Assembly: GCA_938083135.1 (NCBI GenBank)
Contig: CALLKY010000077.1
Coordinates: 1 to 60,679, forward strand
Reading direction: 5' to 3'
Source: an uncultured Alphaproteobacteria bacterium
Lineage (GTDB): Bacteria; Pseudomonadota; Alphaproteobacteria; Bin95
Length of the DNA: 60,679 nucleotides
Each line of letters starts with the position of its first letter. Positions within the stretch are counted from its first letter, which is position 1. The position numbers were made by a program, and so were the translations under genes. The notes below the pieces were generated by a model. It saw only the letters and a list, made by a program, of their open reading frames with translations. It did not search any database and was not told the DNA's origin. This document shows positions 53,095 to 59,376 of this stretch, one piece after another.

Positions 53095-53625
53095 CTACTT
53101 GAAGGTCTCATTGGCATCGACGCCCCACACCTGGCGGCGTGAAATCCAGCCTTTGATTTCGCCTTTTCGCACACGACACCAGCGGGGTGTGCATTCCGGT
53201 GTGCGTAGAATGACGCCGCGCTCGGCATAGGCAACGATCCTGGAATCACCGTCCGCCTTGCTGTGTATGGTCGCACGGCCATCGCTGACGACCAGCAATG
53301 ACCGGGCACCAACCAGAAGGCTCTTGTGCATCCAGCCACGCAGGCCGTCATACAATTTCACCTGCCGCCACAGGCCTTCTTCATCGATGATCTGCACCGG
53401 CATACCGGCATGCATCAGCGTCCAGTCGATCTTATGCGCCTTGCTTGGGCCAAGCCTAAGATGGGCTGGCGCATTGCGAATCGAAACATAGCGCGGCAAA
53501 GGATAGCCCGTGTTTGAGCCAACCGCTTTAGTCGCCTGTGCATTGGCGGCCTTAGGGGCAGCCACAAAACCAGCGCAGATCGCCAGCATCAAACCAAGAC
53601 TGAGGCCGCGAATAAAGTGTTTCAC
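53095..53625 (-). CDS. secreted SH3-domain protein
   Basis: 176 aa. Signal peptide MKHFIRGLSLGLMLAICAGF, cleavage after KAANA. Two bacterial SH3 domains follow: residues about 45-100 (VSIRNAPAHLRLGPSKAH) and 105-165 (CTPRWCRVRKGEIKGWI). Such domains bind peptidoglycan or proteins in the periplasm. No catalytic domain. Its ATG overlaps the cofGH stop (ATGA), so the two are co-translated although the roles look unrelated. Confidence 0.8.
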   Translation of the reverse strand: MKHFIRGLSLGLMLAICAGFVAAPKAANAQATKAVGSNTGYPLPRYVSIRNAPAHLRLGPSKAHKIDWTLMHAGMPVQIIDEEGLWRQVKLYDGLRGWMHKSLLVGARSLLVVSDGRATIHSKADGDSRIVAYAERGVILRTPECTPRWCRVRKGEIKGWISRRQVWGVDANETFK

Positions 53626-56051
53626 GCGCGCTCATACTCCTTGGCCGGACGGTTGATAATCGCATCCAACGGGGCAGCCTGGCGGGCGCGCTGCTGCTGC
53701 GGCTCTGGCGGAAAGCCGTAGAGTGTGGATCGCTGGCGGACCGGGCGGCCAATGCCGTGGGCGATCGCCTCCATCCGATGGGGTGCCAGCTCTTCACCGT
53801 GCGCAGCGCCTGCAGCGCGGGTGATGCTTTCGTTCATCAACGTGCCGCCAATGTCATTGGCACCGGCGTTTAATGCTGCAGCAACCCCATCTGGCCCTAG
53901 CTTCACCCAACTTGCTTGAATGTTGGAGAACCACGGGAAAAGCGCCAAGCGGGCGACGCTGTGCATCAGAATCGCTTCCCGGAAGGTCGGGCCTTTGCGC
54001 GCCAGGCCTTTCAGATAGATCGGTGCTTCTTCGGCCACGAATGGCAATGGCACAAGTTCAGAGAACCCGCCTGATTCGGACTGCGCCTGGCGGAGCCGCA
54101 TGAGATGCGTCGCCCAATGGCCGTAATGCTCCACATGGCCATACATGATGGTCGCAGTAGAGCGGAGGCCGATATCGTGGGCGGCGCGCATCACTTCGAA
54201 CCATTCCGCCGTGTTCAGCTTGTCCGGGCAAATGATATCGCGCACTTCGTCATCCAGAATTTCGGCAGCGGTGCCGGGCAGCGTGCTCAGCCCCGCATCC
54301 TTCAGCATGCCCAGATATTCAGGGATCGGCAGGCCTAAAGTTTCCGCACCTTGGCGCACTTCCAGCGGCGTGAAGGCGTGGATATGGATATCGGGCGCGC
54401 CCCTGCGGACAGCAGCCAGAATGTCCAGATATGTCTGGCCGGTATATGCGGGATGGATGCCGCCTTGCATACAGACTTCTGTGGCACCACGGTCCCAGGC
54501 TTCCGCCACCCGGCGCTCGATCTCTTCCATGTCGAGCACATAGGGCTTGCCGCGCAGGTTTTCCGTCAGTTTACCTTTGGAAAACGCGCAGAACTGGCAT
54601 TTGAAGTAGCAGACATTGGTGTAGTTGATGTTCCGGTTCACGACATATGTCAGCGTATCGCCGGAAACTTCCTGTCGGAGCGCATCTGCGGCGGCTGCCA
54701 CAGCGGAGAACGCATCACCACGGGCGGAGAACAGAAACGCCGCTTCGTCCGCATCCAACATTTTATCTGCAAACGGCTTATCCAGAATGCGGGCGAGACG
54801 GGAGCCAATAATCGGCGCCTTTCGTTCTGCCAGAAGGTCAAGATCACTTCGCGGCGGATCATGCGGCTTGCCTGCTTCCCACGCATCTGTCCGGGCATAG
54901 CCTTCTGTATCAATAGCGCGGCGAATGGATGGGGCCAGCGCCTTATCGACCCAGCGGGCAGCGTCCAGCGCAAAGGATGGATACACCGTGAGCCGTTCGA
55001 TCAACAGTTTGCCCGCCGCTGCCGTTTCATCCGTCAGGCGCTGGAGATGCGGCCAGGGCGCTTCTGGGTTCACGTAATCTGGCGTCACTGGGGAAACACC
55101 GCCCCAATCGTTCACTCCAGCCCGCACCAATTTGGCCAGCCCGCCGGGGGAGAGGTTTGGTGGAGCTTGCACGCTCATCACCCCGCCCATGACGAGGCGC
55201 GCTATCGCGACCGTCCATGCCAGATCATCCAGATCAGGCTCCGGCCAATCCCGCATTTTGGTATCTGGCTTGGCACGGAAGTTTTGAACAATGACTTCCT
55301 GGATATGGCCGTGGGCTTCATGCACACGGCGGATTTCCAAAAGCGCTTCAATGCGTTCCGCCCGGGTTTCGCCGATACCAATCAGTATGCCTGTTGTAAA
55401 CGGCACAGCAGCACGGCCTGCGGCTTCCAGGGTGTCGATCCGGGCTTGGGGTTTTTTATCGGGCGAGCCATAGTGTGGCATGCCTTTTTCAGTCAGGCGC
55501 TCAGACAGGCTTTCCACCATAATGCCCATGGAAGCGCTGACAGGACGGAGAACCGCCAGATCATCATCGGTCATCAAGCCAGGGTTCAAGTGCGGAACAA
55601 TGCCCGTTTCCTCGAACACCAATTTCGCCATAGCACCCAGGTATTCCAGCGTTGAGGCATAGCCAAGCGCCGCCAGATGTTCCCGCGCTGCCCGATAGCG
55701 CAGCTCTGGCTTGTCGCCGAGCGTGAACAGCGCTTCCTTGCAGCCTTGGGCCTGACCAGCCCGCGCTGCCGATAGCACTTGTTCCGGCGTCATAAACGCC
55801 AATGCGCCCTTCTTTGGCGGCTTGGCGAAGGTGCAGTAATGGCAGACATCCCGGCAAAGGTGCGTCAGCGGGATGAACACTTTGCGACTGTAAGAAACCT
55901 TATCGCCCCAGTGCGCGTCCCGAAGTGCCGCTGCGGCGGCCATTAACGGCGTCAGATCATCCGGCCCCGTTTCCGCAAGCGCCATCGCTTCATCATGAAA
56001 CAGCCGGGCACCGCCAGCAGCAGCGGCGATGATTTCATCGAGATCATCCAT
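53622..56051 (-). CDS. fbiC: bifunctional FO synthase, CofG-CofH fusion
   Basis: 809 aa from the ATG at 56051 (MDDLDEIIAAAAGG); the frame runs further upstream only through the palindromic repeat. Two radical-SAM halves: the CofG half with CRDVCHYC (Cys66, Cys70, Cys73) and the CofH half with CYFKCQFC (about Cys481, Cys485, Cys488). CofH joins tyrosine to the pyrimidine and CofG closes the deazaflavin ring, giving 7,8-didemethyl-8-hydroxy-5-deazariboflavin, the F420 chromophore. Fusion is usual in actinobacteria and some proteobacteria. Upstream are repeat E and an LLM gene, and cofC lies two genes away. Confidence 0.93.
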   Translation of the reverse strand: MDDLDEIIAAAAGGARLFHDEAMALAETGPDDLTPLMAAAAALRDAHWGDKVSYSRKVFIPLTHLCRDVCHYCTFAKPPKKGALAFMTPEQVLSAARAGQAQGCKEALFTLGDKPELRYRAAREHLAALGYASTLEYLGAMAKLVFEETGIVPHLNPGLMTDDDLAVLRPVSASMGIMVESLSERLTEKGMPHYGSPDKKPQARIDTLEAAGRAAVPFTTGILIGIGETRAERIEALLEIRRVHEAHGHIQEVIVQNFRAKPDTKMRDWPEPDLDDLAWTVAIARLVMGGVMSVQAPPNLSPGGLAKLVRAGVNDWGGVSPVTPDYVNPEAPWPHLQRLTDETAAAGKLLIERLTVYPSFALDAARWVDKALAPSIRRAIDTEGYARTDAWEAGKPHDPPRSDLDLLAERKAPIIGSRLARILDKPFADKMLDADEAAFLFSARGDAFSAVAAAADALRQEVSGDTLTYVVNRNINYTNVCYFKCQFCAFSKGKLTENLRGKPYVLDMEEIERRVAEAWDRGATEVCMQGGIHPAYTGQTYLDILAAVRRGAPDIHIHAFTPLEVRQGAETLGLPIPEYLGMLKDAGLSTLPGTAAEILDDEVRDIICPDKLNTAEWFEVMRAAHDIGLRSTATIMYGHVEHYGHWATHLMRLRQAQSESGGFSELVPLPFVAEEAPIYLKGLARKGPTFREAILMHSVARLALFPWFSNIQASWVKLGPDGVAAALNAGANDIGGTLMNESITRAAGAAHGEELAPHRMEAIAHGIGRPVRQRSTLYGFPPEPQQQRARQAAPLDAIINRPAKEYERA

Positions 56052-56092
56052 TGTCTGAACGCTCCACCAATGCAGAACACGAGGCGGCAACG

Positions 56093-56217
56093 CCCCCCTC
56101 ACCCCGCCTCTCCCCCCGTTGGGGGGCGAGGAGTTCCAGTGGAAGTGCCGCCAGGTATTCACCTCGCCTCCCCCCCAAAGAATGCATGGCGGGGGGAGAG
56201 GGACAGGGTGAGGGGGG
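56093..56217. repeat. palindromic intergenic repeat, copy E (full length)
   Basis: A 125-nt element in the leader of cofGH. Outer arms CCCCCCTCACCCCG / CAGGGTGAGGGGGG; inner hairpins CCTCTCCCCCC-GTT-GGGGGGCGAGG and CCTCGCCTCCCCCC / GGGGGGAGAGG. The central part differs from copies A and B. It could end the upstream LLM transcript or affect cofGH expression. Confidence 0.88.
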
Positions 56218-56249
56218 TGTCTGCAAAGCAATCAATCCCAGCATCACCC

Positions 56250-57278
56250 TCAAACCCCGCTGCGCACAGCTGGGAAGACTTCTTCGGCAAGAAGCTGCAT
56301 TTCATCCAACACCATAGACTGCGGCATGCCTGGATACTGGACGCCAAAGACGAAATGGTTGACGCCAAATCGCGTAATGATGTCGATGATCTGCTCTGAG
56401 ATTTCCTCTGGCGAACCGAACAGGAATCGATCTTTCACCAGGTCCTCGTACATCATGCCCAAATCATTATCGCCCTTCGGCATGGCCTTTGCCTGACCCC
56501 ATTCATGATAGGCATCATATTTGGCCTTCAGGTAGGGCTCTGCCAGGCGCATGGCTTCATCGCGGGACTTGGCGACGAACACCTCCCGCATCATTGGGAA
56601 GTCTTCCGGCAGGTCCAGTTTGCCGTTGTCTTCCAGCGCCTGCTTGTAGACGCCCATCTGGCGTTCAATCGTATCCAGCCGGTTATGGGGGTTAACGAAC
56701 CATGCATCTGCGACCCTGGCTGCGCGCTTGATGGCCTTGTCAGCGTTCGCACCGACCCAGATAGGCGGCAGTGGCTGCTGCAAGGGTTTGACCGGGCATG
56801 ACGCATCAATCAGCTCGAAGTGAGAGCCTGACATGGTGACTTTTTCTTCGGTCCAAAGGCGCTTGACGGCTTCCAAATTTTCTTCGAAGCGCGAGGCCGC
56901 GTCCTTCGTTGTTGTGCCGAACGCCTGGAATTCGACCTCTCGATACCCAATGCCAACGCCAAAAATCAGCTTGCCGCCAGACATGACATCGATATTGGCG
57001 AAGGTTTCGGCGACATCCAGCGGCTTGTGCAGCGGCAGTAAAACAATGCCAGCACAATGGCGCATATCCGGTGCTTCAGCCATGATCCGCGCCATGAACG
57101 GGACCTGCTGGAAATCCAGCAGCGGATAGGCACTGTAGTGCGAGCCTTTCATCAACGTGTCGAAGCCAAGCGTATTCGCGAGGCGGGCCTGTTCACAGGC
57201 CTCCAGAAAACGCGCGTGCATGTCATCGCCGACAGGATTTTGGCCCCGATTGAACAGGCTGAAACGGATATCCGTCAT
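56250..57278 (-). CDS. LLM-class oxidoreductase in the F420 cluster
   Basis: 342 aa from the ATG at 57278 (MTDIRFSLFNRGQNPVGDDM). Luciferase-like barrel with LMKGSHYSAYPLLDFQQVPF and GVGIGYREVEFQAFG. It is distinct from the paralogue pair at 565 and 12880. Placed between cofC and cofGH it is a strong candidate for F420 use, though FMN cannot be excluded. Substrate unknown. It begins 41 nt after the cofC stop and ends 33 nt before repeat E. Confidence 0.85.
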   Translation of the reverse strand: MTDIRFSLFNRGQNPVGDDMHARFLEACEQARLANTLGFDTLMKGSHYSAYPLLDFQQVPFMARIMAEAPDMRHCAGIVLLPLHKPLDVAETFANIDVMSGGKLIFGVGIGYREVEFQAFGTTTKDAASRFEENLEAVKRLWTEEKVTMSGSHFELIDASCPVKPLQQPLPPIWVGANADKAIKRAARVADAWFVNPHNRLDTIERQMGVYKQALEDNGKLDLPEDFPMMREVFVAKSRDEAMRLAEPYLKAKYDAYHEWGQAKAMPKGDNDLGMMYEDLVKDRFLFGSPEEISEQIIDIITRFGVNHFVFGVQYPGMPQSMVLDEMQLLAEEVFPAVRSGV

Positions 57279-57318
57279 AAAAAATCGCCCTGAAATTGCG
57301 CACAGTACTGAGAAGGCT

Positions 57319-57993
57319 CTAATTTTGCCCTTTTGGGAGCTTAGCCGCAATCCCATGCGCATCAACAAACGCGCGCGCCCTGCATTCAGCACCCGTCGCC
57401 AGCGCTGCGGCTAGGTCTTCCGGCGTATCCACGTCGAGCGCTACACGGGGCAAATCATCCAGAATATTCGGCGTAAGGCCCAGCTTCGCGGCTTCTGCCA
57501 AATGCGGCTCAAAGCTGACATGGCCAAAATGCAAGGGAATCAGCGGCCCCGGCGTCAAAACCAGGCAGTTGGAGCCGCGCCGTGCGTGATCAGGGACGAT
57601 GGTCATTGCTGGGCGGCTGGATGGGTGACGGGCAAGAATGGACTCGATATCCGCGGCCTTAATAAGCGGCGCATCGGCCGGGAGGGTCAGCACGCCGTCC
57701 GCCCCTTCTGCCGCCAACACTTCCGCCGCCCGCTGCACGGCTTCCGATTGGCCAATGTTCTCAGGCTCGCCCTCAACGCGGGCACCGTAACGTTCCGCCA
57801 AGGCGGAGGCTACGGGATCATTGGTCAACACCAACACGCCTGCAAGCGACGGCGCGCCAGACGCGGCTTCCAACACATCCTCCGCCATGGCGCGAAACAA
57901 ACCGCGGCGGTCTTCAGGCGTTAATGCGGATGCAAGGCGTGTTTTGGCATTCTCCAGATCTTTGATCGGGATAACGCACCATATCCCACTCAC
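57319..57993 (-). CDS. cofC: 2-phospho-L-lactate guanylyltransferase (CofC/FbiD)
   Basis: 224 aa from a GTG at 57993; the GTGA overlap with the upstream stop fixes the start. GT-A nucleotidyltransferase fold: VIPIKDLENAKTRLA with the P-loop-like signature near residues 5-20, GVLTLPADAPLI for metal binding and PDHARRGSNCLVLTPG. It activates 2-phospholactate or phosphoenolpyruvate with GTP for the F420 side chain. With cofGH in the same cluster, F420 biosynthesis is firmly indicated. cofD and cofE are not in the window. Confidence 0.88.
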   Translation of the reverse strand: MSGIWCVIPIKDLENAKTRLASALTPEDRRGLFRAMAEDVLEAASGAPSLAGVLVLTNDPVASALAERYGARVEGEPENIGQSEAVQRAAEVLAAEGADGVLTLPADAPLIKAADIESILARHPSSRPAMTIVPDHARRGSNCLVLTPGPLIPLHFGHVSFEPHLAEAAKLGLTPNILDDLPRVALDVDTPEDLAAALATGAECRARAFVDAHGIAAKLPKGQN

Positions 57994-58274
57994 CCAATTG
58001 GTCCCGGCGGCTGCCCACCGACAATGGCGTGGATGAAGTAGGCATAAGCAGCGCCCGCGACCAGGTTGATCATCAGGTAGAACCGCTGAACGTCCTCTAC
58101 CTGGACCTCGCCTTGGCGGGATTTCCAAACCGCGTACATCTTGGTCAGCGGGTTCACAGAAAACATCTGGCAGCCGAATGTCAGCAATGCCACCTGCACG
58201 CCCCAGGCGTTATAGGCAAATGCGGCCGGTGCGGCCCAAACCAGGATGCGTAAGAATTTGAAGGTGTCATTCAT
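57990..58274 (-). CDS. small membrane protein coupled to cofC
   Basis: 94 aa from the ATG at 58274 (MNDTFKFLRILVWAAPAAFAY). Three hydrophobic segments, about residues 8-26, 29-44 and 68-86, and a hydrophilic loop (KSRQGEVQVEDVQR). No family recognised. Its start overlaps the TfoX-like stop and its stop overlaps the cofC start, both by four nt, so the three are co-translated. It may place CofC or another F420 enzyme at the membrane; this is inference from context only. Confidence 0.6.
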   Translation of the reverse strand: MNDTFKFLRILVWAAPAAFAYNAWGVQVALLTFGCQMFSVNPLTKMYAVWKSRQGEVQVEDVQRFYLMINLVAGAAYAYFIHAIVGGQPPGPIG

Positions 58275-58576
58275 GGCGCGCGCATCGCGAGTTCGATCCA
58301 ATCGTTCAAGTCTTCGTCCAATTCATGGCCAACGGGGGAGACAGTGATAATTCCAGGCATTTGTTCTTCAGCCGACGGGTCTGCGCCATTGCGGGCGAGC
58401 GCTTCCGCCGCCGCATCCGGCGACATCCTGAGCAGCAATTGATCCTGCACGACCCCAAGACGCATCTTACCAGACTGGTAGAACATCAATCCGCCTAGCA
58501 TTTCCCGCTCATCAGCCTCGCCATAAGGTGCGAGGGCCTGGCGAACACGGTCAGCGAGGGCGTCATCATAAGGCAT
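58271..58576 (-). CDS. TfoX N-terminal domain protein
   Basis: 101 aa. The compact TfoX-N fold: MPYDDALADRVRQALAPYG, a conserved MLGGLMFYQSGKMRLGV and PVGHELDEDLNDWIELAM. In competence regulators this domain precedes another, but stand-alone versions are common and of unclear role. Overlaps the small membrane protein by four nt. First gene of the minus-strand F420 run; divergent from the sulfotransferase with about 44 nt between starts. Confidence 0.8.
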   Translation of the reverse strand: MPYDDALADRVRQALAPYGEADEREMLGGLMFYQSGKMRLGVVQDQLLLRMSPDAAAEALARNGADPSAEEQMPGIITVSPVGHELDEDLNDWIELAMRAP

Positions 58577-58620: not shown

Positions 58621-59376
58621 ATGACAGACTCGCAAGATCATCGCATCATCGCAATGTGGTCCGGCCCGCGCAATGTCTCCACGGCGTTGATGTACAGTTT
58701 TGCGCAACGACAGGACTGCGCGGTCTGGGATGAGCCCTATTACGCAGCTTGGTTGGCCGAAACGGGCCAAGATCACCCCATGCGGGATGCTATTCTCGGC
58801 CGAGGGCCGGTCGCGGCATCCGATGTTGCGGCACGGGTGCTTGAACGGCCTACGGGCGGGGCGTCCGTTCATTATCAGAAGCATATGGCGCATCACATGC
58901 TGCCGGAATTTGACCTGGACAGTTGGTTCAGCCACGCAACCCATGCATTTCTGATCCGCGAGCCAGCGTCCGTTCTCGCGTCATATACCCAGAAGTTCGA
59001 GGATGTCAGCTTAGATTTACTTGGCTACCCGCAATTGGCCACTTTGTTCGATCGCGCCGCCGATGCGCTTGGCTACGCACCCCCAGTTATTCGCGGCAGC
59101 GACATTCAGCAGGCACCGGAACTGTCATTAGTGATGTTGACGGACGCCCTGAATCTGGCGTTTGACCCCGCAATGCTGAACTGGCCAGCAGGGCCGAAGC
59201 CCTATGACGGCGTATGGGCACCCCATTGGTATGACCGGGTTTGGGCGACATCACGATTTGACGGCCCGGCGAAATCAGCAACGCCATATCTGCCAGCACA
59301 TCTTGCACGGATCGCAGACCAAGCGCAGCCGCTTTATGAGCGGCTGGCCGCACACGCGCTTTCTATCGCTCCATAA
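58621..59376 (+). CDS. sulfotransferase-family protein
   Basis: 251 aa from the ATG at 58621 (MTDSQDHRIIAMWSGPRNVSTALMYSF). The GPRNVSTAL loop near residues 15-23 binds the 5'-phosphosulfate of PAPS; HAFLIREPASVLASY at about 110-124 gives the 3'-phosphate Arg and Ser. Substrate unknown; similar proteins lie near amino acid metabolism genes. Ends 19 nt before a bidirectional terminator shared with the OmpA-like gene. Confidence 0.78.
   Translation: MTDSQDHRIIAMWSGPRNVSTALMYSFAQRQDCAVWDEPYYAAWLAETGQDHPMRDAILGRGPVAASDVAARVLERPTGGASVHYQKHMAHHMLPEFDLDSWFSHATHAFLIREPASVLASYTQKFEDVSLDLLGYPQLATLFDRAADALGYAPPVIRGSDIQQAPELSLVMLTDALNLAFDPAMLNWPAGPKPYDGVWAPHWYDRVWATSRFDGPAKSATPYLPAHLARIADQAQPLYERLAAHALSIAP

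Follow-up and report, generated by a model that had tools for sequence, protein, structure and literature searches.

A 94-residue inner-membrane protein (MP) encoded immediately upstream of cofC is probably restricted to few lineages, belonging to the cofC operon of one genus as a local neighbour and not acting as a general partner in F420 synthesis. On balance, we favour the explanation that MP represents a rare alphaproteobacterial inner-membrane family which, in this genus, stands together with a TfoX_N-domain gene upstream of the cofC-LLM-fbiC cluster, and which has no part in core F420 synthesis.

Organization of the locus

In the window (the whole 60,679-nucleotide stretch of DNA that was analysed), the TfoX_N, MP and cofC genes are arranged head to tail on the minus strand, followed downstream by genes encoding an LLM-class oxidoreductase and FbiC:

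58271..58576, minus strand: TfoX_N-domain protein, 101 aa (PF04993, 42.7 bits), the lower-scoring of two copies in the genome
57990..58274, minus strand: MP gene, 94 aa, three predicted helices, ATG start and TGA stop, without known family
57319..57993, minus strand: cofC, predicted 2-phospho-L-lactate guanylyltransferase (PF01983; TIGR03552, 150.6 bits), GTG start
56250..57392, minus strand: LLM-class (Bac_luciferase) oxidoreductase (PF00296), the next gene of the block after cofC
53622..56231, minus strand: fbiC, a cofG-cofH fusion, FO synthase (NF006687, 1136.4 bits, cut-off 1018)

The TfoX_N protein clears the gathering score of PF04993 (30.1 bits), and the window cofC encodes an ordinary member of the CofC/FbiD proteins (TIGR03552, PF01983), over the curated TIGR03552 cut-off of 105 bits. 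The GTG start of cofC matches the start region of its relatives; longer in-frame starts are also present. The first start of the LLM frame falls within the 3' end of cofC, and its real start probably lies further in, while the start given for fbiC is the first possible one of the open frame. The genome containing the window (G000) also carries a cofD gene scoring over the cut-off, on a different contig from the trio. Divergent from the TfoX_N gene is a Sulfotransfer_5 gene (58621-59376, plus strand), which was matched in two other genomes of the genus (G003 and G002), with no match in the G004 and G001 regions compared.

The original prediction described this trio as overlapping by four nucleotides at each junction, and MP as translationally locked to cofC. 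The layout was confirmed: the TfoX_N and MP genes share ATGA (58271-58274), and the MP and cofC genes share GTGA (57990-57993), the GTG start of cofC overlapping the MP stop codon. Among the 30 same-strand neighbour pairs of the window, a crude gene caller found 7 with a start codon positioned to give a 4-nt overlap, and none of these 7 belongs to the trio. Such overlaps are thus common here, the MP/cofC overlap is not special by itself and tells little about function, and translational locking of the two genes is therefore conjectural.

MP as a gene and as a membrane protein

MP is a real gene under purifying selection. A search of 60 genomes with the window protein identified homologues (67-98% identical) in four further members of the genus, and pN/pS ranged from 0.03 to 0.33 across all 10 pairs of the five genus copies. 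The only distant homologues found, in genomes G107 and G216, are 53 and 48% identical, respectively, and the pN/pS value between these two is 0.32. MP is a single-copy gene in its own genome (single-sequence search, E up to 10).

The AlphaFold2 model of MP (mean pLDDT 81.8, built from only 5 close sequences) contains helices at residues 3-24, 26-52 and 59-85, in agreement with the three helices predicted originally. An alignment of the seven homologues (A2) has 27 invariant columns, 11 of them within helix 2. The residues W24, G25, A29, L30, L31, F33, G34, Q36, M37, F38, S39, L43 and T44, which span the turn preceding helix 2 and the helix itself, are identical in all seven proteins and may form a face for packing or for a ligand. 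In the window protein, charged residues occur near the N-terminus and at positions 45-64, about the loop that joins helix 2 to helix 3. By the positive-inside rule this pattern suggests an N-in/C-out topology, with the stretch containing K51, R53, E56, E60, D61 and R64 presumably cytosolic and the short, proline-rich tail periplasmic.

Searches for a family or a known fold

The window protein matched no Pfam family at E values up to 1. When all seven homologues were compared with Pfam at E up to 10 (a search in which HMMER's filters remove most matches above 0.1), the one match obtained, 0.17 in a single member, was read as chance. The best values against NCBIfam (0.2) and PHROGs (0.17) were noise, and no profile match to PDB sequences rose above it at E up to 10. 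The description of MP as an undescribed protein of no recognised family therefore holds within Pfam, NCBIfam, the PHROGs and PDB sequences.

Comparisons of the predicted structure gave matches at background level. The best Foldseek E values were 1.7 in the PDB and 1.1 in a viral library. The best VIA-align match of the model was the DUR3 urea transporter (Z 6.8, rmsd 3.9 Å, 88 aligned residues), a likeness that we read as background for helical bundles. DgkA, a small membrane protein of solved structure, resembles MP in its size and three helices, but its scores (Foldseek E 1.7; VIA-align Z 3.9-4.5, rmsd 5.7-6.6 Å over 68-87 aligned residues) are also background, in the range given by VIA-align for unrelated helical bundles, and neither Pfam nor the PDB sequences (up to E 10) gave a sequence-profile match to DgkA. 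To our eye, the 'P-L-T-K ... K-x-R' look of MP recalls SemiSWEET/PQ-loop transporters. None of the seven homologues matched a Pfam model of this type up to E 10, HMMER's filters again removing most matches above 0.1; no SemiSWEET was among the VIA-align matches listed for MP, a result which, given a model built from so few close sequences, excludes nothing.

Gene order within the genus

All five genomes of the genus retain the order TfoX_N-MP-cofC (the contig of G003 ends inside cofC), and the LLM and fbiC genes follow cofC in all four in which the contig continues, the window included. The trio is retained even though at least two of these genomes differ in the genes that precede it, which suggests selection for the block. 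Judging from gene order, the MP and TfoX_N genes, placed directly upstream of cofC-LLM-fbiC, are probably co-transcribed with this cluster. In one of the five genomes, G004, whose 96%-complete assembly contains cofC and fbiC, cofD was searched for at E 1e-5 and not found, which may reflect an assembly gap.

The two junctions of the trio differ in constancy. The 4-nt overlap between TfoX_N and MP is found in all five genomes, whereas MP overlaps cofC only in the window and in the 98%-identical copy of G003; the gap between MP and the nearest cofC ATG is 13 nt in G002, 4 nt in G004 and 4 nt in G001. This difference favours the view that MP and the TfoX_N protein form a functional pair (e.g. a membrane-tethered regulator, or a system related to DNA uptake) with cofC as a passenger, as does the absence of both MP and TfoX_N matches from the nine remaining family genomes (G005-G013). 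However, G216 has MP without a TfoX_N match at E 1e-5, and in G107 the two genes occupy separate contigs (TfoX_N on C6, MP on C4). The pairing is thus not obligatory, and we consider this view unlikely. The TfoX_N protein encoded beside MP matches the domain over the cut-off, but with 38-50 bits in all five genus genomes, as against 98-108 bits for a second copy present in G000 (98.4 bits, G000:C35), G002 and G003.

Distribution of MP relative to cofC

The nine family siblings without an MP match, obtained with the window protein as query, all carry cofC (eight over the cut-off, the ninth, G011, cut at a contig end). Six of them (G006 and G009-G013) were searched whole with the window protein alone, and their cofC loci were scanned with a seven-row profile. 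In a class sample of 385 genomes, 4 have MP and 60 have cofC; the samples searched for the two genes were treated as one set because their handles and counts agree. The MP matches are sharply two-peaked: four lie at E 1.4e-45 or lower, and the best of the remainder reaches 0.017 across 33 positions; short pieces from 45 further genomes, obtained when the limit was relaxed to E 1, were read as chance. MP lacks the wide presence across F420 producers expected of the F420-biosynthesis gene set, since 56 of the 60 genomes with cofC in the class sample are without it, and the protein is probably not involved in core F420 synthesis.

Other samples gave a similarly narrow picture. MP was present in 1 of 398 genomes of a phylum sample that mixes in members of the class, the single case being the window's own genome, and a scan of public genomes yielded four MP loci, all from the same genus. 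A match in G032 (E 0.008) was rejected as chance, since it is an antisense frame overlapping a larger open frame, which we take to encode a MoxR-type ATPase; dropping it changed the MP tally from 6/60 to 5/60.

This sparse distribution would be compatible with MP having come into the cluster from a phage or plasmid. We regard such an origin as highly improbable: tblastn searches at E 0.01 of 72,556 plasmid records and 50,697 phage records were both negative, the 600 viral-contig sequences that matched a pattern included no relative, no PHROG scored above noise, and the divergence of MP inside the genus is about that of cofC.

Where MP does occur, cofC occurs as well. All four MP genomes of the class sample are among the 60 with cofC (naive hypergeometric P 5.4e-4, which ignores kinship), but they represent just two lineages, i.e. 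the genus of the window and an order represented by two genomes, so that the link at genome level is suggestive. In total, all seven MP genomes carry cofC (six over the cut-off, one truncated), and six, G004 being the exception, also have cofD over the cut-off. Co-occurrence of MP homologues with cofC was seen in one direction, from MP to cofC; the reverse did not hold in the class sample. As the seven genomes come from two lineages, a looser link to F420 may exist.

MP lies directly upstream of cofC in 4 of 30 parsed loci, all from its genus (15 of the 45 loci were unparsed and left out). At the cofC loci read outside the genus, this position is often occupied by a gene that we take to encode an LLM oxidoreductase or by a frame that looks cofD-like. 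In several family siblings, cofC is preceded by a divergent, presumably lpxC-like gene, whereas the gene preceding it in G006 is on the same strand and resembles, in our reading, a formyltetrahydrofolate cyclo-ligase. A different frame again directly precedes cofC in G024 (L036, reverse strand, 625-1479 from the far end); its start resembles, in our reading, a glutamyl-tRNA synthetase-type protein, making it another lineage-specific neighbour of cofC. In the f95 genomes (L064, L065) the LLM gene is located upstream of cofC, as opposed to downstream in the genus of MP (window 56250-57392), and its products share just 32-33% identity with the LLM protein of the window. LLM genes may therefore have joined cofC more than once.

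Is MP a partner in the F420 pathway?

The two distant homologues bear directly on this question. In both G107 and G216, MP is located away from the cofC of the same genome, which forms part of an LLM-cofC-fbiC cluster devoid of MP, and the neighbours of MP differ between the two: we take them to be polA and an HPr-kinase-like gene in G107, and L,D-transpeptidase and MFS genes in G216. It had been stated that a role in the pathway would be refuted if homologues occurred mainly away from F420 genes. Counted by genome this is not the case, as five of seven copies adjoin cofC; counted by lineage, MP is beside cofC in one of two.

According to the original prediction, MP could be a new F420-pathway partner. 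Where present, it might tether CofC (and, via CofC, also CofD) to the membrane, or move F420 or a precursor across it. The gene order retained throughout the genus and the presence of cofC in every MP genome, mostly with cofD, are in keeping with this idea. They have to be set against the many cofC genomes of the class and the nine family siblings that lack an MP match, the unlinked genes of G107 and G216, and the location of cofD on another contig in G000. Moreover, a three-helix protein of 94 residues would probably need to oligomerize for transport. The constant proximity to cofC holds for one genus, a general partnership probably does not, and nothing points specifically to either an anchor or a transporter. 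We consider an F420 partner rather unlikely. A narrower version, which appears to us distinctly improbable, would have MP dock CofC at the membrane in only a small number of alphaproteobacteria that make F420, from a gene next to cofC in one genus and in trans in the second lineage. If true, the inner membrane would be the site of F420-0 assembly, or of the transfer of F420 to membrane enzymes. To our knowledge, no membrane component tied to CofC has been described so far, and an MP acting as an F420 partner would be the first. The consulted passages of an F420 review mention a CofC-CofD complex and, for the single bacterium P. rhizoxinica, a putative ABC exporter adjoining its 3PG-F420 cluster; they name no MP-like protein (PMC8498797).

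We return, then, to the preferred explanation, that MP belongs to a rare family outside core F420 synthesis. It is most likely an orphan small inner-membrane protein, carried as a passenger in a genus-specific operon. The mechanism that we would tentatively place first is that of a three-helix scaffold or adaptor which self-associates and serves some membrane process unrelated to F420.

Possible CofC-CofG-CofH fusion frames

A side result of the survey of cofC loci, which we judge to be of more interest than MP, is the occurrence of cofC and cofG in one open frame in two class members (G231 and G103). The fused frames have the following positions:

L085 1426-3549, plus strand: cofC-cofG fused frame, TIGR03552 and TIGR03550 over curated cut-offs
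L088 1414-3588, plus strand: cofC-cofG fused frame, TIGR03552 and TIGR03550 over curated cut-offs

Both frames continue, up to the end of the sequence compared, into letters that by eye resemble the beginning of the cofH portion of the window fbiC. It is possible, from these sequences, that such frames encode a trifunctional CofC-CofG-CofH enzyme, a fusion of which we found no mention in the consulted passages of the F420 review (PMC8498797). Three further genomes contain cofC within long open frames, of 1,208 aa in G211 (C81), 1,015 aa in G319 (C92) and 1,024 aa in G381 (C57).
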